Source: Nocardioides pelophilus (GTDB taxonomy: Bacteria; Actinomycetota; Actinomycetes; Propionibacteriales; Nocardioidaceae). From it: a stretch of DNA of 64,000 bases. The position numbers and the translations under genes are program-made. Positions 18,060 to 41,646 of this stretch are shown one piece after another. The notes beneath the pieces are model-generated. The model was not told where the DNA came from. It searched no databases and saw only the letters and a list, made by a program, of their open reading frames with translations. Location of the stretch: NCBI RefSeq assembly GCF_014180685.1, contig NZ_JACEHF010000003.1, positions 1 through 64,000 of the forward strand, in the 5' to 3' direction. Position 1 is the stretch's first letter, and each line of letters starts with the position of its first letter.

Positions 18060-19052
18060 CTACGTCGATGTCGCCGACCACAGCGCCAGCGTCTCGTCCA
18101 GACCGATCAGCCACCATCGCCAGTCGCCGTGGGCACCGCAATGCTCAGCGGTTGTCACGGCGACGCCGTTGGCTGACAGTGCGCGTGCGTAGCGACGGGT
18201 CTGCCGCGCGATGCCCATCTCGGTGACCGCGCTGTCGGGCTCGGGCACGCCAGCGCCGTCAGGACACGCGCTGCCGTCACCTGCCGTCACGTGGACAGTG
18301 GTGCCCACGAGCCGAGCGAGGTTGTCCATCGGGTTGGCCCGCCGCGCCCGGGGTCCGAAGACCGGGCCCCAGGTGTCGCGATAGCGCACCAATGTCCCGG
18401 CCTTGGCGGAGACCTGCAGCGGGTAGGCGGCCACCGCTTCAGGGGACCGCATGTCGGGGAGCGCCGGCGACAGGGCCCCTACGGTCCCGAAGGTCTCGGG
18501 CCATTGGCCGGCGTACCTCAATGCGCCCTGACCACCCATGGACACACCGACGATTGCTCGCGCCGAGCGATCGGTGGAGATGCTGAACCGTTCGATGACC
18601 GCATTGATCAGAGCGCGGTGGAGGTCAAGCCATCGGGCCCCGCCGAGGCGTACCCAGTTGGTGTACATCCCGTAGTGACCACCGTCGAGGGACAGGACCA
18701 CGACGTCCTGGAGTCGCGCGTCGTGCAGCAGATCGCCTCGTTCGGTCCAGGTGGTGGATGAGCCGCCGGAACCGTGGAGGAGCACGAGCAGGCGGTATCG
18801 GCCGGCCGGTTGAGGATGGAAGTCGACGGGGAGCTGGACCACCCCGCTGTGCGGGACCGGGTCCTTGGTGCGGCCGCTCACGCTCGACGGGTCGACGTAG
18901 GTCTGGTTCGCGAGCTCCACCCGGACCTGGCGAGGTCCCATCGACGTGAACAGGAGATCGGACGATCGGGCGTCGGCGGGCGCAGCAGCTAGGAACGAGG
19001 TGATCAGGACCAGCGCGATCCCGAACGATCGGCAACTCAGCCGGTGGTTCAT
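18060..19052 (-). CDS. Secreted esterase (Esterase D / PHB-depolymerase-like alpha/beta hydrolase)
   Basis: A 330-residue exported protein with a signal peptide (GIALVLITSFLAAAPADA). The alpha/beta-hydrolase core shows LLHGSGGSSTTW (oxyanion side), the nucleophile S171 in GVSMGGQGALRYA, and a late His in CGAHGDWRWWL. The family (PF00756) includes carboxylesterases and mycolyltransferases; this one looks like a plain esterase. The ATG overlaps the stop of the propeller gene (ATGA), so it is the last gene of the ALDH-hydrolase-FadD-propeller-esterase operon. An extracellular ester is the inferred substrate. Confidence 0.85.
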   Translation of the reverse strand: MNHRLSCRSFGIALVLITSFLAAAPADARSSDLLFTSMGPRQVRVELANQTYVDPSSVSGRTKDPVPHSGVVQLPVDFHPQPAGRYRLLVLLHGSGGSSTTWTERGDLLHDARLQDVVVLSLDGGHYGMYTNWVRLGGARWLDLHRALINAVIERFSISTDRSARAIVGVSMGGQGALRYAGQWPETFGTVGALSPALPDMRSPEAVAAYPLQVSAKAGTLVRYRDTWGPVFGPRARRANPMDNLARLVGTTVHVTAGDGSACPDGAGVPEPDSAVTEMGIARQTRRYARALSANGVAVTTAEHCGAHGDWRWWLIGLDETLALWSATST

Positions 19053-20926
19053 GGAAGCTCGGCCGTGGTCGGGGCGAAGCCTCCTGCGGAGATCGCGACC
19101 TCGCTCGTCCCTGGAGGAACCTCTGCCCACCCCTCGGCGTCGGTGACGACGGCCCTGCCGAGGCCTGCCACTGTCGCACCCTGAACCGGCTGCGGGGTTG
19201 CCGACTCCGGCACGTTGGCGACGACCCGGACCCGAACTGCGCCGGGCACGGCAACGGTCTCGCCGATCTGGAGCCGCGGTCGGTGGACTCCGGGGCAGGA
19301 CTTCTGCTGGGTGGGAACCCCCTCCCAGACCTCGCCGTCGATCTCGGTCCGCACCGAGCCGTCGAAGGCGGCGGGGTAGCGGATCGACAGAGCGCCGCGC
19401 ATCGAGCCTGTGCGCTCACCCGAGCTCCGGAGGTCGGCGGTCCAGGTCGACTGGATCGGAGCGGCCGAGGTGGTGATCAGCTCCGTTCCGTCGAGGAAGG
19501 TGCGCCCGTCTTCCGAATAGCTGTCGTACCGCACCGACCAGGTGCCGGCGGCGAAGGTTCCGGCGTAGCTCACGATCGCGGCGCCGGAGTGCGCTCCCGC
19601 GAGACGTCGGGCAACCAGCATGCGGGAGCCGGCAGGACGGTAGCTGCGGTACGGGATGGCCCAGTCCTCGTAGCCGACCTGGCCCAGGTCGACCGCCGGG
19701 GTGGGCGTCGTCGCCTCTGCGCCCGCGACCTCGACCACCCGCAGCTCGACCCCCTCGTCAGTGGCTCCACCAGCCCCGGGTGAGAACTGCTGCTGACTCA
19801 CGATGAACCTGCGGCCGTCGTCGAACCAGTCCGAGCCGCGGATCACCCATCCGTCGGACAGGACCACGGGTTGGCCGGCGTAGTCACCGCGTTGCCCGGC
19901 GCGGTCCATCAGCCAGTGCTCGTTCATGCATCGGCGGTTGTTGTGAAGGGAGATCCGACCGAGCTGGGGGAACGTCATGGTGTCGAGCAGGGCGGGCCGG
20001 ACGAGCTGGGTGAAGACGTCCATCCGGTCCAGGCCCCGCGCGGAGGCGTAGAGCGCCAGCTGCCCGTCGGGAGAGCCCTCATAGATCTCGTTGTAGTCGA
20101 GGTCCGTCGTGACCAGGCGGCGTTGACCCGTCGCCAGGTCGAGCTCCCAGATGTCGTAGTTCATCGACGTGCTCGTCGCCCGGTACACCAGGGTGCGGCC
20201 GCCATCGAGCCAACCGCCGCCCGTCTCGTAGTACCTCGTGCCTTCGACCCAGGTCGGGACGCGGGCCCCGAACCGATGGCGCGGGTTGATGACGTACGGC
20301 TTGCGCACCCGGTAGTGACGCGCTGTCTCGACCAGCTCGCCGATGACCATGACCGGGCCGCCGGTCGCACGCACCTCGGTCCAGGTGAGGTGCCGACCGT
20401 CAGGGCTCACCCGCGGCTCGCGGTTCTGGACACCCTGCTGCAGGCCGTCGCGGGGCAAGGTCACCGGCTTCGCAGTGCGCTCCTGGCAATCGACCAGGCT
20501 CGGCGTGCAGGTCACCACGTGGAACTGGATGTCGGACATCGTCGCGGCAGGGCCGGCGACGAAGACGCGTCGGCCGTCCTCGAACGGACTGGCCTCGCGG
20601 CCACCGTCAAGGACGCCGCAGGTCACACAGCTGAACTCCGGACGGCCCAAACGGATCGCGCCCACCTGTGGGGAACCCTCGTAGCGGACGTTGGCGAGGA
20701 CCCATTCCTCGTCCTCGATCAGCCGAAGGCCGTTCGCCTGGCCCGATTGGAGAGCGACGCCCGCCGGCAGGGCGATCGGCTCACCCGCCGAGAGGGCGTG
20801 GAGCGCCGGCGTCGCTGCGACGGTGGTGACCTGTCCGGCGTCGGCGGGAGCCGTGACGAGGAGAGCGGTCACGAGCGAGCAGGCGACAGAAAGCGTGAGG
20901 GCGCGCAGGCGCCGGTCGGTGGGCAT
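19049..20926 (-). CDS. Secreted TolB-like beta-propeller protein, paralogue A
   Basis: A 625-residue exported protein with a signal peptide (residues 1-30, ending APADA). Several blade-like repeats of PD40/TolB type are visible (SPDGRHLTWTE, SPDGQLALYASARG, WFDDGRRFIVSQQ). Paired cysteines (SCVTCGV; VVTCTPSLVDCQE) should form disulfides. The C-terminus (about 575-625) looks like a small Ig-like domain of the carboxypeptidase-regulatory type. The core ARGLDRMDVFTQLVRP and NNRRCMNE-WLM is nearly identical in the gene at 39724. No enzyme motif is seen; extracellular binding is inferred. GGAG lies well placed before the ATG. It lies 25 bp after fadD. Confidence 0.8.
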   Translation of the reverse strand: MPTDRRLRALTLSVACSLVTALLVTAPADAGQVTTVAATPALHALSAGEPIALPAGVALQSGQANGLRLIEDEEWVLANVRYEGSPQVGAIRLGRPEFSCVTCGVLDGGREASPFEDGRRVFVAGPAATMSDIQFHVVTCTPSLVDCQERTAKPVTLPRDGLQQGVQNREPRVSPDGRHLTWTEVRATGGPVMVIGELVETARHYRVRKPYVINPRHRFGARVPTWVEGTRYYETGGGWLDGGRTLVYRATSTSMNYDIWELDLATGQRRLVTTDLDYNEIYEGSPDGQLALYASARGLDRMDVFTQLVRPALLDTMTFPQLGRISLHNNRRCMNEHWLMDRAGQRGDYAGQPVVLSDGWVIRGSDWFDDGRRFIVSQQQFSPGAGGATDEGVELRVVEVAGAEATTPTPAVDLGQVGYEDWAIPYRSYRPAGSRMLVARRLAGAHSGAAIVSYAGTFAAGTWSVRYDSYSEDGRTFLDGTELITTSAAPIQSTWTADLRSSGERTGSMRGALSIRYPAAFDGSVRTEIDGEVWEGVPTQQKSCPGVHRPRLQIGETVAVPGAVRVRVVANVPESATPQPVQGATVAGLGRAVVTDAEGWAEVPPGTSEVAISAGGFAPTTAELP

Positions 20927-20951
20927 GGGGTCTCCTCTGGTGGCGTACGGG

Positions 20952-22736
20952 TCAGGGGGTTGCGGCGTACATCGAGTCGATGACGTCGGCGTACTTCTCG
21001 GAGATGGGTCGCCGCCTCAGCTTCAAGGTCGGGGTGAGCTCGTCGCCGGCGGGCTCCCACGGCTGGTCGACCACGCGGTGCCGGCGTACCTGCTCCACGC
21101 GTGCGAGCTGCTCGTTCGCCCTGGCGACGCCCTCGGCCACGGCGTCAGTGACCGCCGGATGCTGACTGAGCTGTGTGAAGTCGCCGGACAGCCCGCGCGC
21201 CGCGGCGAACTCGGCGACCTGGTCGGGGTCGAGCGCGATGAGCGCGGTGACGAAGGGGCGACGGTCCCCGATCGCGACGACCGTGCCGATCAACGGGCAG
21301 GCCATCTTCAACACGTTCTCGATCCGCGCCGGCGACATGTTCTTGCCGGCGGAGTTGATGATCAGCTCCTTCTTGCGGTCGATGATGCGGACGTAGCCCT
21401 CCGCGTCGACGGTCCCCACGTCGCCGGTGTGCATCCACCCGTCGATCACCGTCCGGGCCGTGAGCTCCGGCTCGTTGCGGTAGCCACGCATGATCCCCGG
21501 GCTGCGGACCAAGAGCTCGCCGTCGGCCGCGATCTTGACCTCGACGCCCGGGATCGCCTGGCCCACCGTGCCGGGCCGGATCGCGTCAGCGCGGTTGACC
21601 GTCGCCACGGCCGTGATCTCCGTCATCCCCCACGCCTCGCACAGCGGGATGCCCAGGGACAGCACGAACTCCATCGCGTCCTCGGCGATCGGGGCCGCGC
21701 CGGTGACGGCATAGGTGCAGGCGTCAAGGCCGAGGCGCTTGGCGACCTGGTGGAGCGCCAGTCGGTACGCCAGGGCGTACTCCAGCCGTTGGTACGCCGT
21801 CGCGCTGCGATGGTCGAGCCGCCGCCTCGCCTCGTCCCGTCCCACGCGCAGCGCCCATCGGGCGAGCGCGACGCGTGGGCCCCGCTGGTTCGCGAGCCTG
21901 CTGTCGATCGTGGCCTTGAGCTTGTACCAGAGCATCGGGACGCTGACGAAGATCGTCGGGCGGACCTTGGTCAGTGCGCCGAGCAGCTCCTTCGGCTCGG
22001 CGAGCGTCGTGACCTCTGCGCCGGAGAACATCGGGTAGTAGTGCGCGAGGTAGCGGTTGAGCGCGTGGGCATCCGGCAGGTAGGAGATCACCCGTGCCTC
22101 GGCGGGTTGCTCCGCGAGCGTGGTCACGGTCTGCAAGGAGAACAGCATGTTCGCGTGCGTGATCTCGACGCCCTTGGGGTCTCCAGTGGTACCGGAGGTG
22201 TAGATCAGGGTCAGGACGTCCTCGGGCTGGACGGAGTTCCACGCGCTCTCGAAGTCGAACCCGGGGTCGCCGACTCGTTCGAGCTCGGTGAGGGTGATGA
22301 CGCCGGGCGTCTGCTCGTCCGCATCCACGCAGACGAGGTGCTTCACGTCGGTGCCGGCCGCAGCCTCCTCGACCCGGGAGAGGAACTGGCGCTCGGTGAC
22401 GACGACCTGGCAGCCCGCGTTGAGCAGCAGGAAGCGGATCATCTCCGCGGTGTTGGTGTTGTAGCTGGAGAACGGGGTGGCACCGAGATGCATGGCTCCC
22501 GCGTCAGCGAGGTGGAACTCGGGCCGGTTCGCGAGCATCAGCCCCACCGTGTCCCCGCGGCCGACGCCCAGGTGCGCGAGGCCTGCCGCGACCCGTCGTA
22601 CTCGGTCGCCGTACTGGTGCCAGGTGAGCACGAGGGTGTCGTCGAGGTCCCGGATGGCGACCTGCTCGGCGTGCTCGCGTACGGCCTGCTGGAAGAGCTC
22701 GCACATGGTTCGTGCGACGGGTTGCGAGGTGGTCAT
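20952..22736 (-). CDS. Long-chain fatty-acid (or side-chain) CoA ligase
   Basis: A 594-residue AMP-forming synthetase (FadD15-like). It has the P-loop YTSGTTGDPKG near residue 180, the A5 motif AWGMTEITA, GWMHTGDVG and the hinge region IDRKKELIINSAGKNMSPARIE. It activates a carboxylic acid to its CoA thioester, which feeds the beta-oxidation genes 3 kb away on the plus strand. It is third in the minus operon; 9 bp separate it from the hydrolase. Confidence 0.92.
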   Translation of the reverse strand: MTTSQPVARTMCELFQQAVREHAEQVAIRDLDDTLVLTWHQYGDRVRRVAAGLAHLGVGRGDTVGLMLANRPEFHLADAGAMHLGATPFSSYNTNTAEMIRFLLLNAGCQVVVTERQFLSRVEEAAAGTDVKHLVCVDADEQTPGVITLTELERVGDPGFDFESAWNSVQPEDVLTLIYTSGTTGDPKGVEITHANMLFSLQTVTTLAEQPAEARVISYLPDAHALNRYLAHYYPMFSGAEVTTLAEPKELLGALTKVRPTIFVSVPMLWYKLKATIDSRLANQRGPRVALARWALRVGRDEARRRLDHRSATAYQRLEYALAYRLALHQVAKRLGLDACTYAVTGAAPIAEDAMEFVLSLGIPLCEAWGMTEITAVATVNRADAIRPGTVGQAIPGVEVKIAADGELLVRSPGIMRGYRNEPELTARTVIDGWMHTGDVGTVDAEGYVRIIDRKKELIINSAGKNMSPARIENVLKMACPLIGTVVAIGDRRPFVTALIALDPDQVAEFAAARGLSGDFTQLSQHPAVTDAVAEGVARANEQLARVEQVRRHRVVDQPWEPAGDELTPTLKLRRRPISEKYADVIDSMYAATP

Positions 22737-22745
22737 GGTGAGTCC

Positions 22746-23561
22746 TCAGACGGCGGTGTCGATGGCGGAGGGGGACGTCAGCGAGAGGATCGTGCTCGCG
22801 ACGAGCTCGGGGTCGTCGTACATGGGCACGTGACCGGTTCGGGGGAGCTGCACGTGGCCGGATTGCGGGAGCAGTGTCCGGAACGGACTGCCGTAGCGCC
22901 GGTAGGGAAGGACCCGGTCGAGCTGTGGCCAAGCCACCAGCGTGGGGCACGGTCCCGGCGCGAAGGGGGCCTCGCTGTGTCCCTCGGAGCGGAGCCCGGT
23001 GATCAGGCGGACGACGAATCGGGCCGAGTGTCGACGAGAGGTCAGGAGTTGGCGGACCTCGTCGACCGGCACTCGGTCGCCGCGCACCATCAGCGGAGCG
23101 AGCGCGGCACGACGAACGACGGCGCTGCCAACGGGGATCGGCGGCAGTGGCGCGGATGCGATCCGGATGGCCGCGACGAGCTTGACCTCGAGAAGAAGTC
23201 GGTCCCATCCCGTCCCCCAGGCGCCGGGCGGGGCGATCGCGGTGGCGGTGATGGCACGTCCGCGTCGCGCGAGCTCGAGCACCGCCGCTGCTCCGAGTGA
23301 GTTCCCGGCGAGGTGCGCGCGACCGATCCCGGCGCCGTCGAGGAGATCCTCGACGGCGTCCGCCAGCCCACCGAACGTCAGCAGTCGCGGCGGCGGTGGC
23401 CCGCCGTGGTGGCCGGGCAGAGTGGGCGCGAAGACGTCGTGGTGGGTTGTCAGCCGGTCGATCACCGGTCGCCAGATCCGCCAGGTGGTCACCGCGGGGT
23501 GGAGCAGTACCAGCGGCTCGCCCGAGCCCCCGCGGAAGTGGTCTGTCTGCAGGCCGCTCAT
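22746..23561 (-). CDS. Alpha/beta hydrolase
   Basis: A 271-residue cytoplasmic hydrolase. The oxyanion region is LVLLHPAVTTWRIW, the nucleophile elbow HLAGNSLGAAAVLEL and the catalytic His region LPRTGHVPMYDDP. It resembles the hydrolase at 56491 (shared GSGEPLVLxH, LPGH, AGNSLG, ATAxAP, GHVPMxDD), so the two are paralogues. It likely cleaves an ester or lactone inside the cell. The ATG overlaps the ALDH stop as ATGA. Confidence 0.88.
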   Translation of the reverse strand: MSGLQTDHFRGGSGEPLVLLHPAVTTWRIWRPVIDRLTTHHDVFAPTLPGHHGGPPPPRLLTFGGLADAVEDLLDGAGIGRAHLAGNSLGAAAVLELARRGRAITATAIAPPGAWGTGWDRLLLEVKLVAAIRIASAPLPPIPVGSAVVRRAALAPLMVRGDRVPVDEVRQLLTSRRHSARFVVRLITGLRSEGHSEAPFAPGPCPTLVAWPQLDRVLPYRRYGSPFRTLLPQSGHVQLPRTGHVPMYDDPELVASTILSLTSPSAIDTAV

Positions 23562-25048
23562 GTGCGCACCGAACCCCGACGGCGCAGTCGTCGGACCGCG
23601 CCGTGCCGGAGCACGCCGAGGGCGGTGCCCAACAACCGATTGGTCCGGCTGGAGTAAGGAAGCCAGTGCGGTTCGGCGCGGAGCCGGTGCCGCGAGTGGA
23701 GCACCACCCGGTCCCGGCAGTAGCGGCGCACAGCGTGGGCTCCGCCGAAGCGGGCTCCGAGGCCCGACGACTTCCAGCCCTGCTGAGGCGCGTCGAAGAA
23801 GAACAGGTTGCTGAAGACGCAGTTCACGTTCACCGCGCCGACCTCCAGCCGGTCCGCGACGTCCTGCGCGCGGAACGGGTCGGTCGTCCACACGGTGGCC
23901 GAGAGCCCGTAGGGGGAGAGGTTGGCACGCTCGACCGCCTCGTCGGCCGAACCCACCCGTAGGACGGGCATCACCGGGCCGAACGTCTCCTCGCGCACGC
24001 AGTCCATGTCGTCGGTCGCGTCGAGGACCAGGGTCGGCGGGAACCAGGTCCCGGAGCTCGACAGGTCGTGCCAGCGCTCGACCTTTGCCCCTTTGCGCTC
24101 GGCATCCACCACCTGGCGGCGCACCACCTCGAGCTGGGCGGCCGAAGCAAGGGGCGTGATGTCGCGTTGCCCGAGGTCGCGCAGCCGATCGCGCACGAGG
24201 TCGACGAAGCGGTCGTGCACGGAATCCTCGACGTACACCCGCTCGGTGGACACGCACATCTGCCCGCCGTTGCACATGGCCCCGAAGACCGCCGCGTTGG
24301 CTGCGTGGTCGAGGTTCGCGTCGGCCAGCACGATCATCGCGTCGTTGCCTCCGAGCTCGAGGCTCACCGGCACCAGGCGCTCTGCGGCACGGCGTCCGAC
24401 GGCGCGGCCGGTGCCGGTTGACCCGGTGAACGCCACGAAGTCGACCGTGTCGACGACGGCGACACCGGTCGGGGCATCGCCGACCACGACGTCGAGGACG
24501 TCCGGCGCCCCGATAGCCCTCCACGCGGCTACCAAGCCGGTGGCGGACAAGGGGGTGAGGTCCGACGGCTTCATCAGCACGGAGGCGCCGGCCAGCAGGG
24601 CTGGTACGGCGTCGACGACGGCGAGTCCGAAGGGGAAGTTCCACGGCGAGATGACGCCGACCAGGGGGTACGGCGCTGGGGTGACGGTGGCGCGCTCGAC
24701 GCCCAGCGCCGTGGTCAGCGAGCGGACCGGTCGCTGCGCCAGGTAGCGAGGGGAGCGTGCCGCGAGATGCCGCATGGCCTCGGTTGCGAAGAGCACCTCC
24801 ACCCTGGCCTCTGCCTGAGGCTTGCCGGTCTCGCGGCTCAGCGTCTCGACGAACGAGTCGACGTCGGCGAGGACCTGGTCGCGGAGACGGGAGACCCACG
24901 CCGCCCGGTCGGTTGCCGGGGTGCGGGCCCACGCCGGCTGCTCGGCGCGGAGCCGCTCTGCGACGACCGGGACGGTCCTGGGGTCGGTCGCCGGCACCTC
25001 CCCGACGCGCGAGCCGTCCCACGGGGACGTCACCTCGATGTTCGCCAC
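23558..25048 (-). CDS. Aldehyde dehydrogenase (succinate-semialdehyde-type)
   Basis: A 496-residue ALDH. Motifs are SPWNFPF, FTGSTGTGR, the general base in VSLELGGNDA and the nucleophile in GGQMCVSTERVYV. It has the C-terminal extension PHWLPYSSRTNRLLG that also marks the ALDH at 53520, its paralogue. The start is the GTG at 25048 because AAGGAGG lies just upstream; the frame continues to 25084 but that part overlaps the operator. It is the first gene of the minus operon and divergent from the SDR at 25132. Confidence 0.92.
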   Translation of the reverse strand: MANIEVTSPWDGSRVGEVPATDPRTVPVVAERLRAEQPAWARTPATDRAAWVSRLRDQVLADVDSFVETLSRETGKPQAEARVEVLFATEAMRHLAARSPRYLAQRPVRSLTTALGVERATVTPAPYPLVGVISPWNFPFGLAVVDAVPALLAGASVLMKPSDLTPLSATGLVAAWRAIGAPDVLDVVVGDAPTGVAVVDTVDFVAFTGSTGTGRAVGRRAAERLVPVSLELGGNDAMIVLADANLDHAANAAVFGAMCNGGQMCVSTERVYVEDSVHDRFVDLVRDRLRDLGQRDITPLASAAQLEVVRRQVVDAERKGAKVERWHDLSSSGTWFPPTLVLDATDDMDCVREETFGPVMPVLRVGSADEAVERANLSPYGLSATVWTTDPFRAQDVADRLEVGAVNVNCVFSNLFFFDAPQQGWKSSGLGARFGGAHAVRRYCRDRVVLHSRHRLRAEPHWLPYSSRTNRLLGTALGVLRHGAVRRLRRRGSVRT

Positions 25049-25061
25049 CCGACCTCCTTCA

Positions 25062-25091
25062 TTTACATACATGCCGGCTGGCATGTTAGAT
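25062..25091 (+). promoter_or_regulatory. Promoter with TetR-type operator, SDR side (unit 1 of 3)
   Basis: A -35 TTTACA (25062-25067), 18-bp spacer and -10 TTAGAT (25086-25091) face the SDR gene. The spacer region holds a perfect dyad ACATGCC-GGCT-GGCATGT (25069-25086). The 22-bp frame from 25065 aligns with the two other units (start ACATAC, end GGCATGT). The site also covers the upstream region of the divergent ALDH operon. Confidence 0.75.
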
Positions 25092-25131: not shown

Positions 25132-25989
25132 ATGGGCAAGCTGGACAGATTGAGCGGCGTCAAGGTGGCGATCACCGGGGGCGGACGCGGCATCGGGCGA
25201 TCGACGGCGGCGGCCTTCCGTGCCGCCGGCGCGCGGGTCGTCATCGGCGACATCGATGCGAGCCTGGCAACGAGGACGGCGGAGGAGCTCGGCGGCCTCG
25301 GGCTTCCGCTCGACGTGACCGATCCGGTGTCGTTCCGGGAGTTCTGGCAGGCGGCCGAAGGTGACGGCGAGCCCATCCGGGTCCTGGTCAACAACGCGGG
25401 GATCATGCCGGTCGGCCGGTTCGTCGACGAAGTCGAATCCGCGACCGACCGTCAGCTGGCCGTCAACCTCGGCGGTGTCATCAACGGCTGTCGGCTGGCC
25501 GGACGCCACCTGCCATTGGCGGGAGGTGGCGCGATCGTGAACATCGCGTCGCTCGCCGGCGCGACCGGATTCCCCGGCGTGGCCACCTACAGCGCGACCA
25601 AGTTCGCCGTGGTCGGACTGAGTGCCGCGCTACGCGCGGAGTTCGAACCGCTCGACGTCTCGGTCCACGTCGTCCTGCCCGGGGTGGTGCGCACGGAGCT
25701 GTCTGCCGGTATGCGGCTGCCGGCGGCCCTGCGTGGCTTCGTGAGCGTGTCGCCCGACGACGTGGCTGACGCCGTGGTCGCGGCGGTCCGCCGTGACCAG
25801 TTCCGGCGCACCGTGCCCCGTCGGCTCGGCGTCGTGCTGCGGGTCGCGGACCTGGTGCCCGACGGGGCGCGCCGCCGCCTCGAGCGCTGGACGGGGTACG
25901 ACGACGTCCTGGTCGGTGCCGACCCGGCAGTGCGGGCCGCCTACGAGCGCCGGATCTCCGGCGACGACACCTCGATCCTCGACCTGTGA
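25132..25989 (+). CDS. Short-chain dehydrogenase/reductase
   Basis: A 285-residue classical SDR: cofactor motif TGGGRGIG (residues 15-22), an acidic residue after beta-2 (GDIDAS, favouring NAD), NNAGIMP, and catalytic S and YSATK. It shares VTDPxSFRxF, NNAGIMPxG and NIASLAG with the SDR at 52699. The C-terminal extension ([14 protein letters not shown]) resembles SadH-type enzymes. It is expressed from its own promoter-operator unit, divergent from the ALDH operon. An alcohol/aldehyde or ketone interconversion upstream of the ALDH is likely. Confidence 0.9.
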
Positions 25990-26001: not shown

Positions 26002-26031
26002 TAAACATACCGGCCGGTTGGCATGTAAGAT
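26002..26031 (+). promoter_or_regulatory. Promoter with TetR-type operator, thiolase operon (unit 2 of 3)
   Basis: A -35 TAAACA (26002-26007), 18-bp spacer and -10 TAAGAT (26026-26031). Between and over them lies ACATACC-N8-GGCATGT (26005-26026), with a perfect inner ACCGGCCGGT. Position and sequence copy the units at 25062 and 31588. It drives the thiolase operon that starts at 26090. Confidence 0.75.
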
Positions 26032-27371: not shown

Positions 27372-27806
27372 ATGGGTCACGTCAATGTCAGTCAAGAGCT
27401 TCCCGTCAGCGTCGACAAGCTGTGGAGCACGATCTCGGACCCCCGAACGTGGGACTCCTGGCTCACCATCCACGCGGGCTGGCTGGAGGAGCCGCCGACG
27501 GCGCTGGCCGAGGGTGCGAAGCTCACCGAGAAGGTGGTCATGCTCGGCATGGCCAACAAGCTGGAGTGGACGGTCGAGAAGTGCGACCCGGGCTCGGAGC
27601 TGGTCATCGCCGGCAGCGGCATGGCCGGGGTCAAGACCCGCTTCAGCTTCGCCCTGACGGCGTCGGGCGACAGCACGACGGTGACCGTCGACGCCGAGTT
27701 CAGCGGCTCCCTCATCGTCGGAGCGCTCGGGAAGGCAGTGGAGAAAGACGCCAACAAGAACCTTTCCGACAGCCTCGAGAAGCTCGCCGTCCTCGCGGCG
27801 GCCTGA
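27372..27806 (+). CDS. SRPBCC (START-like) lipid-binding protein, Rv0910 type
   Basis: A 144-residue START/Bet v1-like fold protein: SVDKLWSTISDPRTWDSW at the N-terminus, a strand-rich middle, and a long C-terminal helix (KAVEKDANKNLSDSLEKLAVL). Homologues are often labelled toxin after Rv0910, but no antitoxin lies here. Its place between thiolase and hydratase fits a carrier or scaffold for a hydrophobic acyl or sterol intermediate (inference). AAGGAGAG precedes the ATG. Confidence 0.85.
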   Translation: MGHVNVSQELPVSVDKLWSTISDPRTWDSWLTIHAGWLEEPPTALAEGAKLTEKVVMLGMANKLEWTVEKCDPGSELVIAGSGMAGVKTRFSFALTASGDSTTVTVDAEFSGSLIVGALGKAVEKDANKNLSDSLEKLAVLAAA

Positions 27807-33348: not shown

Positions 33349-34469
33349 CCGCCGCACGTTCGAGGACGGGCCTCCGGTTGAGGGGCCTGCTCCTGGTCTC
33401 GATCCTGGCGGTGTTCGTCGCAGGAGCGATCGCGTCGTACCAGAAGGTCTTCGTGCCGAGCGTGGACGTGACGGTGCTGACCGGGCGGGCCGGACTACAG
33501 CTCCCCGTCAACGGCGACGTGCGGATGCGCGGCGCCATCATCGGACGCATCACCGGCATCCGGTCCGGCGAGAGCGGGGTGGTGATCGATCTCGCGCTGG
33601 AACCCGATGCTGCGGAGCTGGTGCCCGCCGACACCCGCGCCCGTATCCTGCCCACGACCCTCTTCGGGCAGAAGTACGTCGAGCTGGTGGCCAGCCGCTC
33701 CGACGGGCCTTCGGTCGCCGACGGATCGGTGCTGCGTGAGGACACCAGCCGAGAGGCCGTCGAGATCACGCGGGTCATCGACAACCTCGAGCCGCTGCTC
33801 CGCGCCGTCCGCCCCGAGGAGCTGGCCGAGACCCTCCAGACCCTTGCCGACGGCCTGCGGGGCCGCGGGGAGCGGCTCGGTGCGACGGCCACCGACGTCG
33901 ATGCCTACCTGACCGAGCTCAACGTCGACCTGCCCGTGCTGGCGACGGACCTGCGTCTGCTCGGTGTTGTCTCGAGGGCCTACGGCGCGGCGACGCCCGA
34001 CGTGCTCGCGGTGCTGCGCAACGCGACCGCGGTCGGGGACACGATCCTCGACAGCGGCGACGAGCTGTCGGCCTTCCAGGACGAGCTCACCCGTTTCGCT
34101 GACGTGACCCGCCGTTTCCTCGACGCCAACGGCGACGGCATCGTGGAGCTGACCGGTCGCACCCGTCCGGTACTCGAGCTGCTGGGGCGCTACTCGCCGC
34201 AGTTCCCGTGCCTGTTCGATGGTCTGCTGCGCGCCGAGACCGCGGCGGGTCAAGCGTTCCGCGACGGAGTCTTCCACGCGGACGTGGTGATCGGTCGGCA
34301 GTATCCCGGCTACACGGCGGCCGACGTGCCCCGGTTCGGTGACCTCGGCAAGGGCCCGCACTGCGCCGGTTTGCCCGACGTCGACCCGCCGGTCCCGGCT
34401 CCGCGCTCGGACGACGGAGCCGACTATCCGCCGGGCGTCCTGTTGCCCCCGCTGAGGGACGGCGCATGA
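33345..34469 (+). CDS. MCE-family protein, position A
   Basis: A 374-residue protein anchored by one N-terminal helix (GLLLVSILAVFVAGAIASY). The MCE domain (about 38-120) shows VDVTVLTGRAGLQLPVNGDVRMRGAIIGRI and FGQKYVEL. A helical stalk follows and a Pro-rich tail (DVDPPVPAPRSDDG). MceA-F hexamers form the periplasm-spanning lipid tunnel. Two Cys (FPCLFDG, PHCAGLP) near the C-terminus are typical for the A subunit. Confidence 0.93.
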   Translation: MTAARSRTGLRLRGLLLVSILAVFVAGAIASYQKVFVPSVDVTVLTGRAGLQLPVNGDVRMRGAIIGRITGIRSGESGVVIDLALEPDAAELVPADTRARILPTTLFGQKYVELVASRSDGPSVADGSVLREDTSREAVEITRVIDNLEPLLRAVRPEELAETLQTLADGLRGRGERLGATATDVDAYLTELNVDLPVLATDLRLLGVVSRAYGAATPDVLAVLRNATAVGDTILDSGDELSAFQDELTRFADVTRRFLDANGDGIVELTGRTRPVLELLGRYSPQFPCLFDGLLRAETAAGQAFRDGVFHADVVIGRQYPGYTAADVPRFGDLGKGPHCAGLPDVDPPVPAPRSDDGADYPPGVLLPPLRDGA

Positions 34470-35533
34470 GTCGCCGCAGCGTGACGGTCTCGGCCGCGGT
34501 GAAGCTGTCGGTCTTCCTGCTCGCTGCCGCGGCGGTCACGCTCACCGTCGCCGGGACGATCAGGCCCATCGGCTCGGGCGGGAACCACGAGTACCACGCG
34601 ATCCTCGTGAGTGCGAGCGACCTGAAGCCCGGCGACCAGGTGCGGGTCGCGGGGGTGGTGGTCGGCCGGGTCTCCGACGTGGCGCTCGATCCGGACGGGC
34701 ACGCCCGGATCAGCTTCACCGTCGACGAGGAGCTCGACCTCACCACGGAGACCCGCGCCGAGATCCGCTACCTCAACCTGATCGGCAACCGGTACCTCGC
34801 CCTGTCCGAGGGCAGGCGATCGTCGGAAGCGGAGGTGCTGACGGCCGGCGGCACGATTCCTGTCGAGCGGACCAGCCCCGCCCTCGACCTGGACCAGCTG
34901 TTCACCGGGTTCAAGCCGCTGTTCGCGGCGTTGTCGCCGGACGATGCGAACGCGCTGGCAGCGGACCTCGTCGCGACGTTCCAGGGGGAGGGGGGCACGA
35001 TCCGGTCGCTGTTGAGCCACACCGCCGAGGTCACCAGCAACCTCGCCGACCGCGACGCCGTCGTGGGGCGGGTCGTGGAGAACCTGACCACCACCCTCCA
35101 GGTCGTGGACGCCAACCAGGTCGGGCTCAACCAGCTCGTCACCCAGCTGGGGCGATACGTCGGCGGGCTGGCTGCCGACCGCCGGGTCCTCGGCGGGTCG
35201 CTGGAGGGGATCGCCGACCTGGCCGGCGAGACGGCGTCCCTTCTCGATGACGCCCGGCCGGCTCTGCGCTCCGACATCGACCGCCTCGCCGACCTCGTCG
35301 CGATGCTCGACACGCCGACCAATCGGGCGCTCGTCGACGAGGCGCTGAGGGTCGCGCCCCCGCGCCTTGCCCGGATCACGCGGGTCGCGTCGTACGGGTC
35401 CTGGTTCAACTTCTACCTGTGCGACCTCGGCCTGGACGTGCAGGGCGCCGGAGGCGGTGGGACCATCGAGCAGCTCCTGGGAGACATCGAGCAGATCACG
35501 ATCCACGACACCTCGCCGAGGTGTCGGCCGTGA
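34466..35533 (+). CDS. MCE-family protein, position B
   Basis: A 355-residue MCE protein: N-terminal anchor (KLSVFLLAAAAVTLTVAG), MCE domain with SDLKPGDQVRVAGVVVGRV and IGNRYLAL, a long helical region, and a C-terminal SYGSWFNFYLCDLGL that is typical of MceB/C proteins. Overlaps both neighbours by 4 bp. Confidence 0.93.
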   Translation: MSRRSVTVSAAVKLSVFLLAAAAVTLTVAGTIRPIGSGGNHEYHAILVSASDLKPGDQVRVAGVVVGRVSDVALDPDGHARISFTVDEELDLTTETRAEIRYLNLIGNRYLALSEGRRSSEAEVLTAGGTIPVERTSPALDLDQLFTGFKPLFAALSPDDANALAADLVATFQGEGGTIRSLLSHTAEVTSNLADRDAVVGRVVENLTTTLQVVDANQVGLNQLVTQLGRYVGGLAADRRVLGGSLEGIADLAGETASLLDDARPALRSDIDRLADLVAMLDTPTNRALVDEALRVAPPRLARITRVASYGSWFNFYLCDLGLDVQGAGGGGTIEQLLGDIEQITIHDTSPRCRP

Positions 35534-36495
35534 ACGGCGAGAACGCGACCCGGCGGGCGCTGGTCGGGCTCGCCGCCTGCGCGCTCGTGCTGGCCGCGGC
35601 CCTCAACGTGGACCGCCTGCCGCTGATCGGAAGTGGCGGGATCCGCTACCAGGCCGAGCTGACTGACGCCAGCGGTCTGGCCGAGGGCGACCCGGTCAAG
35701 GTCGCCGGCATCGCGGTCGGGACGATCCGCGAGATCGAGATCGACCAGGACCGGGTGACCGTCGAGTTCGAGGTGGACGCCGACGTCCGATTGGGCGCGG
35801 ACACCGAGGCCACCGTGGGATCGGGCTCGCTCCTCGGCGACAAGTACCTCAAGCTGGAGCCGCTGGGCGAGGGCACCCTCGCGGACGGCGCGACGATCCC
35901 TCTCGAGCGCACCCGGCCCGCCTACGACGTCGTGGACGCCTTCGCCGACCTCACCGACACGACCGCCCGCCTCGACGACGAGCTGATCGCGGATGCGCTG
36001 ACGACCCTCGCCGACACCTTCCGGGGCTCGCGCCCGCAGGTCCGCGCCGCGGTCTCCGGGTTGACCCGGCTGTCCGACTCCATCGCGCGCCGCGACGCCG
36101 AGCTCGAGCGCCTCCTGGGCCATGCCACGGAGGTTTCCGGCGTGCTCGCCGACCGCCGCGGGGACCTGAGCCGACTGCTGCGCTCGTCCAACCTCTTGCT
36201 CGGCGAGCTGCGGCAGCGTCGCGACGCGATCCGCGCCGTCCTGGTCAGCACCCGTGAGCTCAGTGATGCGTTGCACGCCGTCGTGGTCGACAACCAGGAC
36301 CGAATCACGCCGGCGTTGGAGGACCTCGAGGCGGTGACCCGTCTGCTGGCCGGCCGTCAGCGAGAGCTGCGGGCAACGATCCGCAACATGGATGCCTACG
36401 GCCGCTACTACACGAACGTGGTCGGCAGCGGCCCGTGGTTCGACAACTACATCCCGCGGCTCCCGGACTCGGTCCAGATCGGGGTCGACCGATGA
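35530..36495 (+). CDS. MCE-family protein, position C
   Basis: A 321-residue MCE protein: anchor ALVGLAACALVLAAALNV, MCE domain with TDASGLAEGDPVKVAGIAVGTI and LGDKYLKLEPLG, helical stalk, and the C-terminal motif VVGSGPWFDNYIP. I use the GTG at 35530 that overlaps the upstream stop (GTGA); GTG 35521 is a possible earlier start. Confidence 0.92.
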   Translation: MNGENATRRALVGLAACALVLAAALNVDRLPLIGSGGIRYQAELTDASGLAEGDPVKVAGIAVGTIREIEIDQDRVTVEFEVDADVRLGADTEATVGSGSLLGDKYLKLEPLGEGTLADGATIPLERTRPAYDVVDAFADLTDTTARLDDELIADALTTLADTFRGSRPQVRAAVSGLTRLSDSIARRDAELERLLGHATEVSGVLADRRGDLSRLLRSSNLLLGELRQRRDAIRAVLVSTRELSDALHAVVVDNQDRITPALEDLEAVTRLLAGRQRELRATIRNMDAYGRYYTNVVGSGPWFDNYIPRLPDSVQIGVDR

Positions 36496-37556
36496 GGACA
36501 CCAGACATCCGCCTTCGCGATCGCCGCAACGTCATCATCGCCTTGGCGGTGGCCGTCCAGCTGGCCCTGCTCCTGGCTCTCGTGCCGGGGAAGCCCGATC
36601 GCACGGCGACCTTGGAGTTCGCGAGTGCGATAGGCGTCTACGAAGGATCCGACGTCCGGCTCATGGGGGTCCGGATCGGGCGGGTGACCGGCGTCGATCC
36701 GGGGGCGACGTCGGTCACCGTCGAGATCGAGTACGACGCGGACTACGACCTGCCCGACGACGTGGGCGCGGTGATCGTGGCGCCGTCGGTGATCGCCGAC
36801 CGCTTCGTCCAGCTGACCCCCGCCTACTCCGGGTCCGGGGCGCGGCTGAGGGACGGCGCGGTCGTCCCGCTCGAGCGAACCCGCACGCCGGTCGAGCTCG
36901 ACGAGGTCTTCTCCACGATGAACCAGCTCCTGGTCGCTCTCGGCCCGAGGGGAGCGAACCAGGAGGGCGCGTTGAACGATGCCCTCGCCGTGGCCGCGAC
37001 CGATCTCCGTGGCCAAGGTCCTGCGCTGCGGCGCCTGCTCGATCGCATGGGCGACGCGGCCGCGACGATGGGCGAGCTGAGTCCGGGCCTGTTCGCGACC
37101 GTCGACAACCTCGCCGACCTCACGACCACGCTGGCGCGGGACGACCAGGACGTCCGGCGCCTCTACGACCACCTCAGTGACGTCGCGGCGTTCCTGGCCG
37201 ACGACCGTCGGGACTTGGCGGCCGTGTTGCAGTCGCTCGCTGTCTCACTGGGCGAGGTTCGGGGTTTCGTGCACGACAACCGGGACCTCGTCGTCCGGAA
37301 CGTGCAGCACCTCACTCGGGTCGGTCGGGCGCTCACCGCCGAGCAGGTGGCCCTGGACAGCCTGCTCCGGGTCGTGCCCGTCGCGCTGAACAACCTCAAC
37401 CGGGTCTGGGACGAGGACAGCCAGGCGATCCGGTCCCGGGCCAACCTCGACCAGATCCTGAACGATCTCGACGGTCTGATCTGTGACGCGATCATCCGTG
37501 CCGGCGTACCGCTGCCTGGGCGGCTGTGCGACCGCCTCGTCGGAGGTGGATCGTGA
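36492..37556 (+). CDS. MCE-family protein, position D
   Basis: A 354-residue MCE protein: anchor NVIIALAVAVQLALLLALV, MCE domain with SAIGVYEGSDVRLMGVRIGRVTGV and IADRFVQLTPAY, a long stalk helix, and LICDAIIRAGVPLPGRLCDRL with two Cys at the end. ATGA overlap with gene C, GTGA overlap with gene E. Confidence 0.93.
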   Translation: MRTPDIRLRDRRNVIIALAVAVQLALLLALVPGKPDRTATLEFASAIGVYEGSDVRLMGVRIGRVTGVDPGATSVTVEIEYDADYDLPDDVGAVIVAPSVIADRFVQLTPAYSGSGARLRDGAVVPLERTRTPVELDEVFSTMNQLLVALGPRGANQEGALNDALAVAATDLRGQGPALRRLLDRMGDAAATMGELSPGLFATVDNLADLTTTLARDDQDVRRLYDHLSDVAAFLADDRRDLAAVLQSLAVSLGEVRGFVHDNRDLVVRNVQHLTRVGRALTAEQVALDSLLRVVPVALNNLNRVWDEDSQAIRSRANLDQILNDLDGLICDAIIRAGVPLPGRLCDRLVGGGS

Positions 37557-38602
37557 GGCGGTTCCGGATTGTCGTTGCGGCGGTGGTTCTGGCGCTACTG
37601 CTGGGCGGCTGTGGAGGCGGCTCCTACGACGGCCTCGCCGACCTGCCGTTGCCGGGAGGCGTCGACGTCGGCGACTCGCCGGTCACGGTGACCGTGCAGT
37701 TCCGGGACGTGCTCAACCTCGCCCGCGGCGCCACCGTGAAGGTCGACGACGTCACGGTCGGTGAGGTGGTGAGGATCGAGCGGGTGGGCTGGCGGGCGGA
37801 GGCAACGCTCTCGCTCCGCGGGGACGTCGACCTGCCCGCCAACGCGGTGGCGGCGGTTCGACAGACGGGTCTGCTGGGCGAGAAGTACGTCGAGCTCGCG
37901 CCTCCGGTCGACGAGCGCGCGCACGGCCGGCTCGCGGACGGGCAGCTGATCCGGCTGGAGCGGACGAGCAGGTCGACCGAGGTCGAGGAGGTGCTCGCCT
38001 CGCTGTCGCTGCTCCTCAATGGCGGCGGACTGGAGAACCTGCGCACGATCACCGTCGAGCTGCATGACGCTCTCGACGGCAACGAGGAGGAGATGCGCTC
38101 ACTCTTCGGGAACGTCGACGTCTTCACCCGCACCCTCGCTGCGAACCGGCGCCACATCAACGGCGCGCTGAGGGGTCTGGACGTCCTCACTCGACGCGTA
38201 GCCGACGGGTCGGAGGTGATCGACCGCACGCTCGACCGGCTTCCGGCCGCGATCGCTGTGCTCGCCGACCAGCGGCGCGGACTGGTCCGGGCACTGGCGT
38301 CGATGGACCGACTGAGCGACGTCGGAACCCGAACGGTCCGCGCGATGCGGTCGGACCTGCTCGCCGTACTCGATGCGCTGGAGCCGACGCTCGCCCGGTT
38401 GGTCGAGGCAGGGGATGCCATTCCGCGCTCCCTGGAGTTCCTGCTCACCTATCCCTTCCCCGAGTCGGCGATGTCAGCGGTGCGCGGTGACTACGTCAAC
38501 TTCGCTGCCCAGTACGCACTTCGGGTCACCGACCTGCTCGACCTCCTGGGGGCGCTGAGTCCCCGGCAGCTCGAGGCCCTCGACCTCGGAGGCGCCCGAT
38601 GA
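37553..38602 (+). CDS. MCE-family lipoprotein, position E
   Basis: A 349-residue MCE protein with a lipoprotein signal, VVLALLLGGCGGG (lipobox LGGC), as usual for the E position (LprK-like). The MCE domain has VLNLARGATVKVDDVTVGEV and LGEKYVELAPP. The C-terminus ends in PFPESAMSAVRGDYVNFAAQY, which is typical for MceE. It overlaps both neighbours. Confidence 0.93.
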   Translation: MRRFRIVVAAVVLALLLGGCGGGSYDGLADLPLPGGVDVGDSPVTVTVQFRDVLNLARGATVKVDDVTVGEVVRIERVGWRAEATLSLRGDVDLPANAVAAVRQTGLLGEKYVELAPPVDERAHGRLADGQLIRLERTSRSTEVEEVLASLSLLLNGGGLENLRTITVELHDALDGNEEEMRSLFGNVDVFTRTLAANRRHINGALRGLDVLTRRVADGSEVIDRTLDRLPAAIAVLADQRRGLVRALASMDRLSDVGTRTVRAMRSDLLAVLDALEPTLARLVEAGDAIPRSLEFLLTYPFPESAMSAVRGDYVNFAAQYALRVTDLLDLLGALSPRQLEALDLGGAR

Positions 38603-39699
38603 ACGCGATCCGGTTGCGACTTCTCCTGTTCGCGGTCATCGGCGCCGTCGCGGTCGCGTACGCAGGGGCGCGTTACGCACGGCTGACCGATGCGGTCTAC
38701 TCACCGACCTACGCGGTCACCGTGGAGCTGACGCAGACCGGCGGTCTGTTCGAAGGAGCCGAGGTGACCTACCGGGGAGTGCCGGTCGGACGGGTCGACG
38801 ACCTCCGACTGACGAGCGACTCGGTCCACGCCGTGCTGAAGATCGACGACGACGCGGAGATCCCGGCGGACGTGCACGCTGCGGTACGCAACCGGTCGGC
38901 GGTCGGTGAGCAGTACCTCGATCTCGCCCCCGACCCCGCAGCGTTGACCAGCGCGGGGGAGCCGGCGCTGCTCGAGGACGGCAGCCGGATCCCGCGCTCG
39001 GTCACCAGCACGCCGCTCGGTGAGGAGGAGCTGCTCGCGAACGTCGACCGGTTCGTGACGTCGGTCGATCGCCCTGCGCTCCGGGTCGTCATCCGGGAGC
39101 TCGGCCACGCTTTCGAGGACGCCGACGTCGACCTCCGGCGCATCCTCGACGGGTCGGAACAGCTGGTCGACGAGGCGACCGAGGGTCTCGATGCCACCCA
39201 GCGACTGTTGCGCTCCGGGCTGGTGGTCCTGCGCACCCAGGCACGCCACGGGGACGACCTCCGACGCATCTCCGGAGACCTCAGGTTGCTGTCGGAGACG
39301 CTGGTGATGAGTGATCGGGAGCTCCGGGCCGTGCTCCGGGACGGTGGCCCGGCGGCGGCAGAGCTGGCGGCGCTGGTGGGCGATCTCGGTCCCCTCGCGC
39401 CGCGCTTCCTCGCCAACACCCTGCCGTACGTCGAGGTCGTGGCAGGTCGGCTCGACGGCGTCGAACAGGCCCTCATCGCGTTCCCCTACAGCCTTGCGGC
39501 CGCCCAGGTCGGCGTTCGCGACGGGCAGGCTCAGTTCAGCCTGGCCGCGACGCCGTCGCCCACTCCCTGCCAGGTCGGCTACCTGCCGCCGGACGAGTGG
39601 CGTTCCACCCAGGACCTGTCGATCGCCCCGCCCCGTTACGACCTGGCGTGCCGTGAGGGCGCCACCAACTTCCGAGGATCCGCCCACGCACCTCGATGA
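38599..39699 (+). CDS. MCE-family protein, position F
   Basis: A 366-residue MCE protein: N-terminal anchor LLLFAVIGAVAVAYAGARYA, MCE domain with QTGGLFEGAEVTYRGVPVGRV and VGEQYLDLAPD, stalk, and a C-terminal segment with CQVGYLPPDEWRSTQDLS, characteristic for MceF. It completes the set of six; 24 bp separate it from the propeller gene, which is therefore in the same transcript. Confidence 0.93.
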   Translation: MNAIRLRLLLFAVIGAVAVAYAGARYARLTDAVYSPTYAVTVELTQTGGLFEGAEVTYRGVPVGRVDDLRLTSDSVHAVLKIDDDAEIPADVHAAVRNRSAVGEQYLDLAPDPAALTSAGEPALLEDGSRIPRSVTSTPLGEEELLANVDRFVTSVDRPALRVVIRELGHAFEDADVDLRRILDGSEQLVDEATEGLDATQRLLRSGLVVLRTQARHGDDLRRISGDLRLLSETLVMSDRELRAVLRDGGPAAAELAALVGDLGPLAPRFLANTLPYVEVVAGRLDGVEQALIAFPYSLAAAQVGVRDGQAQFSLAATPSPTPCQVGYLPPDEWRSTQDLSIAPPRYDLACREGATNFRGSAHAPR

Positions 39700-39723
39700 G
39701 GTGCTCGCACAAGGAGAACGATC

Positions 39724-41646
39724 ATGATCAGGCACCTAGGTCCCAGCGTGGCGGTAGCGAGCGTCGTGCTCCTCGCTACCGGCGCCTTCGTCAGCCCCGC
39801 CGGTTCCACGGCGGGGCCCGAAGCGCCGGTGACATGGGGGGAGACCATCCCCGACAACACGACCGCGGCACCGCCGCCGCTCCAGGCCATCGAGGTCGTC
39901 GACACGATCTACTTCGATGAGATCCCGGTGCCGGCAGGCACGGTGGTCACCGGCGTCGACCTGCTGCCGGACGGCGAGCACTGGCTGCTCGGCATCACTG
40001 TCGACGGTGCCGCCCACTTCGCGGTCACCCGTCCGGACGGGTCCGACTACCAGTGCCTCACCTGCGGCCTGACGCCCGCTGCGGAGAAGCCCGAGGTCCT
40101 CGAGGACGAGAAGCGGATCTGGCTCACCAACACCAGCGGCCAGACCTCAGGCGCCTTGGCCGACTTCCAGTGGTCGATGCTGGAGTGCGCCCCCGACATC
40201 TACGACTGCCGGGACCGGACGCTGGTCCCCGTCGACTTCCCCATCGACTCGTTGACGTCGCTGCCCCAGGGAGCGCAGAACCGCGAGGCCACCCCCGACG
40301 GCGAGGGTCGCTACGTGGTGTGGAACGAGGTCCGCACGCTCGAAGGCACCCGGGTGACGGTCGGCCGGATCGAACGCGGTGCGACGCAGTACCGCGTGGT
40401 CGATCCCCGAGTCGTCCAGCCGCAGTTCTCGACCACGGGCGGTCCCGCCGACTGGGTGGCTGGCGGTCGCTTCTACGAAGGCGGGCGATTCGTGCTCGGC
40501 AACCGTTACCTCAAGTACCAGACGACGCGGACGGCCCTGAACTACGACACCGGGCTCCTCGACCTGTCCACCGGCCAGTACCGGTTCATGACCCGGGACC
40601 TCGACTACAACGAGACCGGTGACGCGTCGCCCGACGGCAGTTGGTACACGTACTCGTCTGCTCGCGGACTCGACCGGATGGACGTGTTCACCCAGCTCGT
40701 GCGGCCCCCCTTCATCGACATGGTCGCGTTCGGCCAGATCGGCAGGGTCGGGCTCTTCAACAACCGCCGGTGCATGAACGAGGCGTGGTTGATGGGCTTC
40801 GGAGGGCAGCGCCAGGACGGGTACGGCGGGCAGCCTCTCCTCACCGAGGACAACTGGCTCGCGCGCAAGAGACAGTGGTACCCGGACAGCAAGCACATCC
40901 TCCTCACCGAGCAGCTGCTGCCGAACGTCGCCAGCGGCGTTCCGCGGGGCCGGCAGTTCCGTCTTCGCGTCGTCCGCCTGCCCGGGCCTGCCACGGAGCC
41001 GATGCCGGAGCAGTCTCTCGACGAGGTCGACTGGGATGCGGTGAGCGTGCCGGCTGCTGAGTACCGCGGGATCGCGTCGCGCCAGGTCCCGGTCCGCGTG
41101 CTTCGCGGCCGCGAGAGCGGAAGGGCCGTGCTGACCTACCTCGGTGCCTTCGCCGGAGGAAGCTGGAAGGTTCGCTACCGCAACTACTCCGACGACGGCG
41201 TGAACTTCCTCTCCGGGCGGGAGTCGATCCGCGTGCCTGCCGCCGCGGGGGTCTCGGTGTGGACCGCGGACCTGAGATCGACCGGCGCCCGGCGGGGTAC
41301 GACCAAGGGCCGTCTGGCCATCCAGCCCGACGGAAGTGCGACCGGAGACGTCGTCACGACCATCAACGGGCAGACCTGGACCGGCGTCCCCCGGCAGGCT
41401 GACTGTCCCGGGATGCGGCAGCCGGCCCTCGAGGCGGACGTGGCTCCGGGCCTAGGTGGCGCCCGGGTCGTCACGGTCACGTCCCTCGTCGCCGAGGATG
41501 CCCGGCCGCGGCCGGTCAACGGGGCGACCGTCACCGTCGGCACGCACCGCTACATCACGGGCCCGACCGGCGTCGTCACGATTCCCCCAGGGATCACCGG
41601 ACTGGTGTCGGCCGCGGCTGGGGGGTTCCGCAGCTGGCATGAGTGA
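39724..41646 (+). CDS. Secreted TolB-like beta-propeller protein, paralogue B, in the mce operon
   Basis: A 640-residue exported protein with a signal peptide (residues 1-30, VVLLATGAFVSPAGSTAG). Blade-like repeats include LLPDGEHWLLGITVDG, TPDGEGRYVVWNE and SPDGSWYTYSSARG. Cysteine pairs (QCLTCGL; LECAPDIYDCRDR) and the core ARGLDRMDVFTQLVRP / NNRRCMNE-WLM match paralogue A (19049), as does the C-terminal Ig-like tail (PRPVNGATVTV). CAAGGAG precedes the ATG. Being last in the mce operon, it may deliver or sense the lipid outside the cell. No catalytic motif is visible. Confidence 0.8.
   Translation: MIRHLGPSVAVASVVLLATGAFVSPAGSTAGPEAPVTWGETIPDNTTAAPPPLQAIEVVDTIYFDEIPVPAGTVVTGVDLLPDGEHWLLGITVDGAAHFAVTRPDGSDYQCLTCGLTPAAEKPEVLEDEKRIWLTNTSGQTSGALADFQWSMLECAPDIYDCRDRTLVPVDFPIDSLTSLPQGAQNREATPDGEGRYVVWNEVRTLEGTRVTVGRIERGATQYRVVDPRVVQPQFSTTGGPADWVAGGRFYEGGRFVLGNRYLKYQTTRTALNYDTGLLDLSTGQYRFMTRDLDYNETGDASPDGSWYTYSSARGLDRMDVFTQLVRPPFIDMVAFGQIGRVGLFNNRRCMNEAWLMGFGGQRQDGYGGQPLLTEDNWLARKRQWYPDSKHILLTEQLLPNVASGVPRGRQFRLRVVRLPGPATEPMPEQSLDEVDWDAVSVPAAEYRGIASRQVPVRVLRGRESGRAVLTYLGAFAGGSWKVRYRNYSDDGVNFLSGRESIRVPAAAGVSVWTADLRSTGARRGTTKGRLAIQPDGSATGDVVTTINGQTWTGVPRQADCPGMRQPALEADVAPGLGGARVVTVTSLVAEDARPRPVNGATVTVGTHRYITGPTGVVTIPPGITGLVSAAAGGFRSWHE

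Follow-up and report, generated by a model that had tools for sequence, protein, structure and literature searches.

We analysed a 64,000-nucleotide stretch of the genome of Nocardioides pelophilus (RefSeq assembly GCF_014180685.1, contig NZ_JACEHF010000003.1, positions 1 to 64,000; hereafter the window), which carries an mce operon together with genes for two predicted secreted beta-propeller proteins, designated PROPA and PROPB. A first-pass annotation had placed two paralogous reading frames at 19049–20926 and 39724–41646, and both were found at exactly these positions. PROPA (625 amino acids) is encoded at 19049–20926 on the minus strand, a detail that the annotation had left unstated, and PROPB (640 amino acids) at 39724–41646 on the plus strand. 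The two proteins are identical at 240 of 599 residues (40%; BLASTP, E=3e-136), and a search of the whole genome at E<=10 returned no propeller match besides these two. As noted previously, both carry the motifs ARGLDRMDVFTQLVRP and NNRRCMNE-x-WLM as well as the same C-terminal tail, and the cysteines of their N-terminal parts align in register. As to the signal peptides also claimed, hydrophobic N-termini were detected in both proteins by a simple hydropathy scan, the signal peptide itself being a prediction. Cysteines C111, C114, C155 and C162 are invariant across 13 close homologues, a set that leaves out the L034 protein of Nocardioides stalactiti, and in a sister group (f21) seven of eight rows exhibit a lipobox-like motif, which fits a location of the family outside the cell. 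Judged from the hydrophobic N-termini, the paired cysteines and these lipoboxes, export of the propellers appears likely. The nearest named relatives are found in N. stalactiti (76% to PROPB) and Patulibacter medicamentivorans (48%).

The locus consists of two arms. The left arm is tightly packed on the minus strand and is opened by an aldehyde dehydrogenase gene (23558–25048), which is followed by genes for an alpha/beta hydrolase (22746–23561), a FadD11-like acyl-CoA ligase (20952–22736; PF00501; 680 bits with NF038343, cut-off of 950 not reached), PROPA and an esterase with a hydrophobic N-terminus (18060–19052; PF00756). The latter corresponds to the secreted esterase previously reported to follow PROPA, and overlaps the PROPA stop codon by 4 bp. 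The right arm, on the plus strand, starts with a short-chain dehydrogenase/reductase (SDR) gene, SDR1 (25132–25989), and continues with genes for an SCP2/SCP-x type thiolase (26090–27292; match to the type-1 SCP2-thiolase 6hsj with E=2.1e-171; PRK08256 above cut-off), an SRPBCC/polyketide cyclase-like protein (27372–27806), a MaoC-type enoyl-CoA hydratase (27814–28677), an SDR of the PRK07791 subfamily (28722–29603; above cut-off) and an acyl-CoA dehydrogenase (29591–30850). A TetR regulator is encoded on the opposite strand (30893–31534, minus). Beyond it lie genes for two MlaE/YrbE permeases (MlaE1, 31724–32509, TIGR00056 under cut-off; the second, 32509–33348, PF02405), mceA to mceF (33345–39699), whose products contain six MCE domains encoded at 33459–38931, and finally PROPB. 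As previously proposed, PROPB is the last gene of the mce operon, starting 24 bp past the mceF stop codon; the gene starts behind this distance and the 4-bp overlap are those of our own gene caller. Each propeller gene has a kinase-regulator pair in its vicinity. A histidine kinase and an OmpR-type response regulator are encoded beside PROPA and the esterase gene (15000–17161, minus), and a second pair is located 2.5 kb from PROPB (44123–46218, minus). The two regulators are best paralogues within the genome (52%), and the kinases are 35% identical.

In line with the claim of a common operator, both arms share an operator-like motif. The exact 13-bp sequence ACATRCCGGCYGG is present in three promoter regions, each time on the plus strand: as ACATGCCGGCTGG at 25069–25081 between the divergent aldehyde dehydrogenase and SDR1 genes, in part of a palindrome (25070–25085); as ACATACCGGCCGG at 26005–26017 upstream of the thiolase gene; and as ACATACCGGCTGG at 31591–31603 between the TetR and MlaE1 genes. 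These three copies in the window compare with 0.03 expected from shuffled sequence, and the whole genome has five. By its position, the TetR protein is the candidate owner of this operator-like motif.

In outline, PROPA and PROPB have the same architecture: the hydrophobic N-terminal stretch is followed by a beta-propeller of the TolB type, then by a further beta domain and finally by a tail that resembles an Ig domain. The propeller and the tail, both named in the first-pass annotation, are supported by modelling. The AlphaFold2 model of PROPB, built from a 5-row alignment, had a mean predicted local distance difference test score (pLDDT) of 53 and a predicted template modelling score of 0.49; pLDDT was ~90 for residues 61–120, i.e. 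the first blades, and below 50 for much of the rest. On this weak model, residues 55–423 align to solved propellers with Z ~15 and a root mean square deviation (rmsd) of 3.7–3.8. A separate model of the C-terminus (mean pLDDT 72) is all beta, with long antiparallel strands plus the Ig-like tail, and the modelled tail matches the MG1 domain of alpha-2-macroglobulin (Z 10.6, rmsd 1.7, 68 residues). For the middle domain, a DUF1849 barrel and OspA were retrieved at ~Z 6 and judged uninformative. At the sequence level, a profile of eight homologues matched TolB (E=2.7e-10) via one blade. PROPA gave weak matches to PD40 and CarboxypepD_reg, both under the Pfam cut-offs, and a member in locus L051 matched PD40 above cut-off. 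A sequence search for known structures returned none for PROPB and a weak match to TolB for PROPA, and no model dedicated to this family was among the matches listed from Pfam and NCBIfam. Likeness to TolB comprises a probably exported TolB/PD40-type propeller of which one blade matches by sequence. However, PROPA scored only 16 bits with the NCBIfam TolB model (cut-off 343) and PROPB gave no match, the N-terminal TolB domain was not found in either protein (Pfam, E<=1), and the propellers differ from TolB by the second beta domain, the Ig-like tail and other gene neighbours.

The family is rare and patchily spread. Using overlapping genome sets, each of which is a sample, we detected a propeller in one of 58 relatives searched (the window genome itself), in 2/391 genomes of the order, in 18/394 of the class (two-row model) and in 5/396 of the phylum; the figures were 12/118 for the genus of genome G060 and 2/130 for the family of G144. 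Distant members reside on two plasmid records, from Caulobacter rhizosphaerae and Mycolicibacterium madagascariense. No propeller relative was detected in viral contigs or phage records, and a viral or phage origin was accordingly rejected. In a tree calculated from a 43-row alignment, which drops five of the 48 propeller genes as fragments or broken copies below 560 amino acids, PROPB forms a group of ten (support 100/99) together with rows from N. stalactiti and Patulibacter and seven from the G060 genus. PROPA lies outside this group on a long branch, its own place being weak (88/45). Since PROPB groups without PROPA, the pair did not arise by recent local duplication; by this tree, their lineages are old and distinct, and members of the family apparently entered the locus on more than one occasion. 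Copies broken by a frameshift or stops were seen in loci L099 (G1149) and L107 (G1124), which suggests that propellers are frequently lost.

To characterize the neighbourhood of the family, we predicted and clustered the genes of 40 loci containing 48 propeller genes, covering ~10 kb around each or less where a contig ended. As controls, 40 random stretches were drawn from 14 contigs of propeller-bearing genomes, without the window genome, N. stalactiti, Patulibacter and the plasmids; 37 were used, after dropping one that reached the G271 propeller locus and two overlapping draws. Score thresholds were our choice and were applied once, and p-values serve as guides rather than strict probabilities. 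An SCP2-type thiolase gene is located near 11 of the 48 propeller genes and in none of the 37 controls (p=0.0011), an acyl-CoA dehydrogenase gene near 8/48 versus 0/37 (p=0.0078), and a two-component system, i.e. kinase and regulator, near 11/48 versus 1/37 (p=0.0069). Secreted hydrolases were counted near 13/48 versus 1/37 (p=0.002, a biased comparison as detailed below). Hydrolases encoded beside other family members are PF00756 esterases (L006, L038), a PE-PPE protein (L092) and a tannase/feruloyl esterase on the Caulobacter plasmid. The thiolase and acyl-CoA dehydrogenase counts show that propellers co-locate non-randomly with a beta-oxidation operon. In G1146, the genes for a response regulator, a histidine kinase, a propeller, an NlpC/P60 protein, a second propeller, the thiolase, an SRPBCC protein, MaoC, an SDR and an acyl-CoA dehydrogenase follow each other on one strand, the propeller and thiolase genes being 63 bp apart. 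Of the 12 genomes with a propeller in the G060 genus, 7 have a propeller gene 0.1–10 kb from a thiolase copy, against a background of one or two thiolase copies per ~6 Mb in most of 116 genomes. G060 and G1155 possess two thiolase copies, each with a propeller nearby, and these propellers belong to different branches of the tree. Indeed, thiolase-adjacent propellers occur on separate branches (G060/G216/G1155/G1146; G060/G1155; PROPA), and within a wider cluster the pairing extends to PROPB and the N. stalactiti copy. The more consistent partner of the propellers is the SCP2-thiolase beta-oxidation operon, along with two-component systems and secreted hydrolases.

Further genes surround the two arms. 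An LmeA-like phospholipid-binding protein (PF11209, above cut-off) is encoded at 17211–18056 and an MMPL transporter at 12261–14408, both on the plus strand. In N. stalactiti, a PF11209 protein is likewise encoded at 3731–4459 of locus L034, and an MMPL transporter gene is near the propeller there as well. Transhydrogenase genes PntB and PntA are located at 2782–5812, and their relatives flank propellers in L040, L049 and L102. Between PROPB and the second kinase are genes for a secreted-looking PxKF-domain protein (41827–43338) and a RelA/SpoT-domain protein (43434–44126). No defence genes were detected.

The position of PROPB directly behind mceF raises the idea that the propellers are dedicated extracellular components of Mce systems, which capture lipid and pass it to the Mce channel. 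In addition to the window, mce genes are near propellers in L034, G060 and G216. In G1146 the propeller is accompanied by a lone gene for an mceE-like lipoprotein (L092, 8569–9711), at the island edge next to truB. However, the two families do not regularly co-occur: the propeller was detected in the 2/391 genomes of the order mentioned above, while 57 of the 59 members of the genus possess MCE domains, as do 34 of 36 same-genus genomes lacking the propeller (G001–G036). Moreover, mce or yrbE genes are absent within ~10 kb of 43 of the 48 propeller genes, a figure to which several stretches truncated by contig ends contribute, and the census gave no enrichment (5/48 versus 1/37, p=0.17). Most homologues are thus found away from mce genes. 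The genome has five other mce operons. BLAST retrieved the full set of six mce genes in four of these, whereas the remaining one is divergent and gave five MCE domains. None of the five has a propeller; four are followed by short proteins that are Mas-like candidates by size and place. The gene that follows mceF in N. stalactiti is outside the propeller family, and a different propeller is encoded 5 kb further on. The product of this gene (L034, 9833–11407; 524 amino acids) contains propeller-like stretches by eye, but matched nothing in Pfam, NCBIfam or PDB at the thresholds applied. The contig that carries the N. stalactiti orthologue of PROPB lacks mce genes, possibly owing to its length of 14 kb. 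On the strength of the rarity in the order, the propeller-less operons, the census and the near-ubiquity of MCE domains in the genus, we downgraded the Mce partnership as principal explanation and regard it as unlikely. Of the earlier proposal that these proteins may be a new class of surface component for lipid binding or delivery in Mce systems, what holds is a predicted secreted propeller pair without described function, which gene order and the operator-like motif link to a lipid locus; a class-wide partnership with Mce is unsupported.

The propellers also differ from the known companions of mce operons. According to Casali and Riley 2007 (PMC1810536), Mas proteins are exported, are encoded just downstream of mceF and contain a domain of ~160 amino acids that is usually membrane-anchored and occurs in most mce operons of Actinomycetales. 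The propellers, compared with Mas by description, exceed 600 amino acids, are rare and are unlike Mas in size and fold. LucA and LucB, accessory factors of mycobacterial Mce lipid import (PMC9882608, PMC5487216), are described in the former source as small transmembrane proteins, whereas the propellers are large and, by prediction, exported. Islands joining mce and beta-oxidation genes are already known: MmGI-1 of Mycobacterium massiliense combines an mce operon with genes for a thiolase, an SDR, an acyl-CoA ligase and an acyl-CoA dehydrogenase, and the words “propeller” and “WD40” were not found in the searched text of that source (PMC4263727). Among the matches listed from the open-licence PMC literature, no paper linking a propeller to mce was recognised; the one paper whose text contains both propeller and mce operon along with Actinobacteria (PMC6985099) mentions a propeller a single time, for a methanol-dehydrogenase-type protein.

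Alternatively, the propellers could be extracytoplasmic ligand-binding partners of the neighbouring two-component systems, i.e. accessories of a sensor rather than parts of a transport route. The enrichment of kinase and regulator in the census agrees with this, as does the related pair near each propeller of the window. Loci L035, L036 and L006 and the G1146 cluster have such a pair directly adjoining the propeller. In L042 and L046, too, pairs accompany the lipoprotein members, though with scores under the census threshold. However, the regulators beside propellers of different families are not orthologues of each other. The window regulator ranked its propeller-side counterpart first only in N. 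stalactiti; elsewhere the counterpart came 4th of 33 (G144), 5th of 24 (G271), 5th of 16 (G1146) and 5th of 15 (G1149). Based on these ranks, we dropped the idea of a conserved orthologous two-component partner beyond the genus. In the window, moreover, two or more genes separate propeller and kinase. A sensor accessory role is, in our estimate, just as doubtful as a dedicated role in Mce transport.

An enzymatic role, with a polymer or ester outside the cell as the substrate of a lyase or hydrolase, would agree with the top structural matches of the propeller part, namely oligogalacturonate lyase 3pe7 of family PL22, which has a seven-bladed propeller (Z 15.1, rmsd 3.7, 270 residues, on a model with pLDDT below 50 across much of blades 4–7) and S9 peptidase propellers (Z ~15), and with the Caulobacter member being located among glycosyl hydrolase and tannase genes. 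The likeness to both enzyme groups concerns the fold of residues ~55–423 on the weak model, and such a common fold says little on function. The metal site of oligogalacturonate lyase uses several histidines. Conserved acidic residues are present (D275, D292, D294 and E297). No known enzyme active site emerged, as there is no invariant histidine among the 13 close homologues, judged without superposing residues on the lyase, and Pfam gives no peptidase or hydrolase domain; likewise, the C-terminal alpha/beta-hydrolase domain of S9 peptidases was not found by Pfam, and the C-terminal model is all beta. We consider catalysis by the propellers very unlikely.

The reading we favour, at slightly less than an even chance, is that the propellers are exported three-domain proteins that were recruited into loci degrading lipophilic, probably esterified compounds, here including an Mce importer, and that they are probably non-enzymatic. 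Several observations weigh against it. Census rows are not independent, as they reflect shared descent and several genes per locus, and the hydrolase count is biased since propeller loci supplied three of its four queries. Neither aldehyde dehydrogenase (9/48 versus 3/37, p=0.14) nor MMPL (2 versus 1) and FadD11 (1 versus 0) is enriched near propellers, and the same holds for MCE. Within ~10 kb, 37 of 48 propeller genes have no SCP2-type thiolase and 35 of 48 none of the tested hydrolases. In the G060 genus, the thiolase is present in 105 of 116 genomes while the propeller is absent from 106 of 118, i.e. the pathway does not need the propeller. In addition, the AlphaFold2 model is weak, the middle domain lacks a clear structural match, and substrate binding is inferred, whereas membership in the locus is observed.

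Under the favoured reading of recruitment into lipid-degrading loci, the substrate would be sensed by the TetR-type repressor and maybe also by the sensor kinase nearby. The exported propeller might bind the substrate or a surface carrying it, or hold the secreted esterase beside it. The freed acid would then enter by an available importer, here the product of the mce operon, with which the propeller may or may not be in direct contact. Finally, the FadD11-like ligase, the acyl-CoA dehydrogenase, the MaoC hydratase, an SDR and the SCP2-type thiolase would shorten the acid. In animals, branched-chain and sterol side-chain acyl-CoAs are the substrates of this type of thiolase. One may go further and regard propeller, secreted esterase, sensor kinase and Mce as one capture-and-handover unit for water-insoluble esters in Actinobacteria, with a logic like that of the starch-utilisation systems of Bacteroidetes and the propeller as an exchangeable recognition part moving between loci; this extension we deem distinctly improbable. 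An exported binding protein whose gene accompanies those for an esterase, a sensor and SCP2-type beta-oxidation would be a candidate for explaining how very hydrophobic nutrients get from the cell exterior to Mce importers in harmless soil bacteria, and the propeller family may serve as a flag for lipid-degradation islands.

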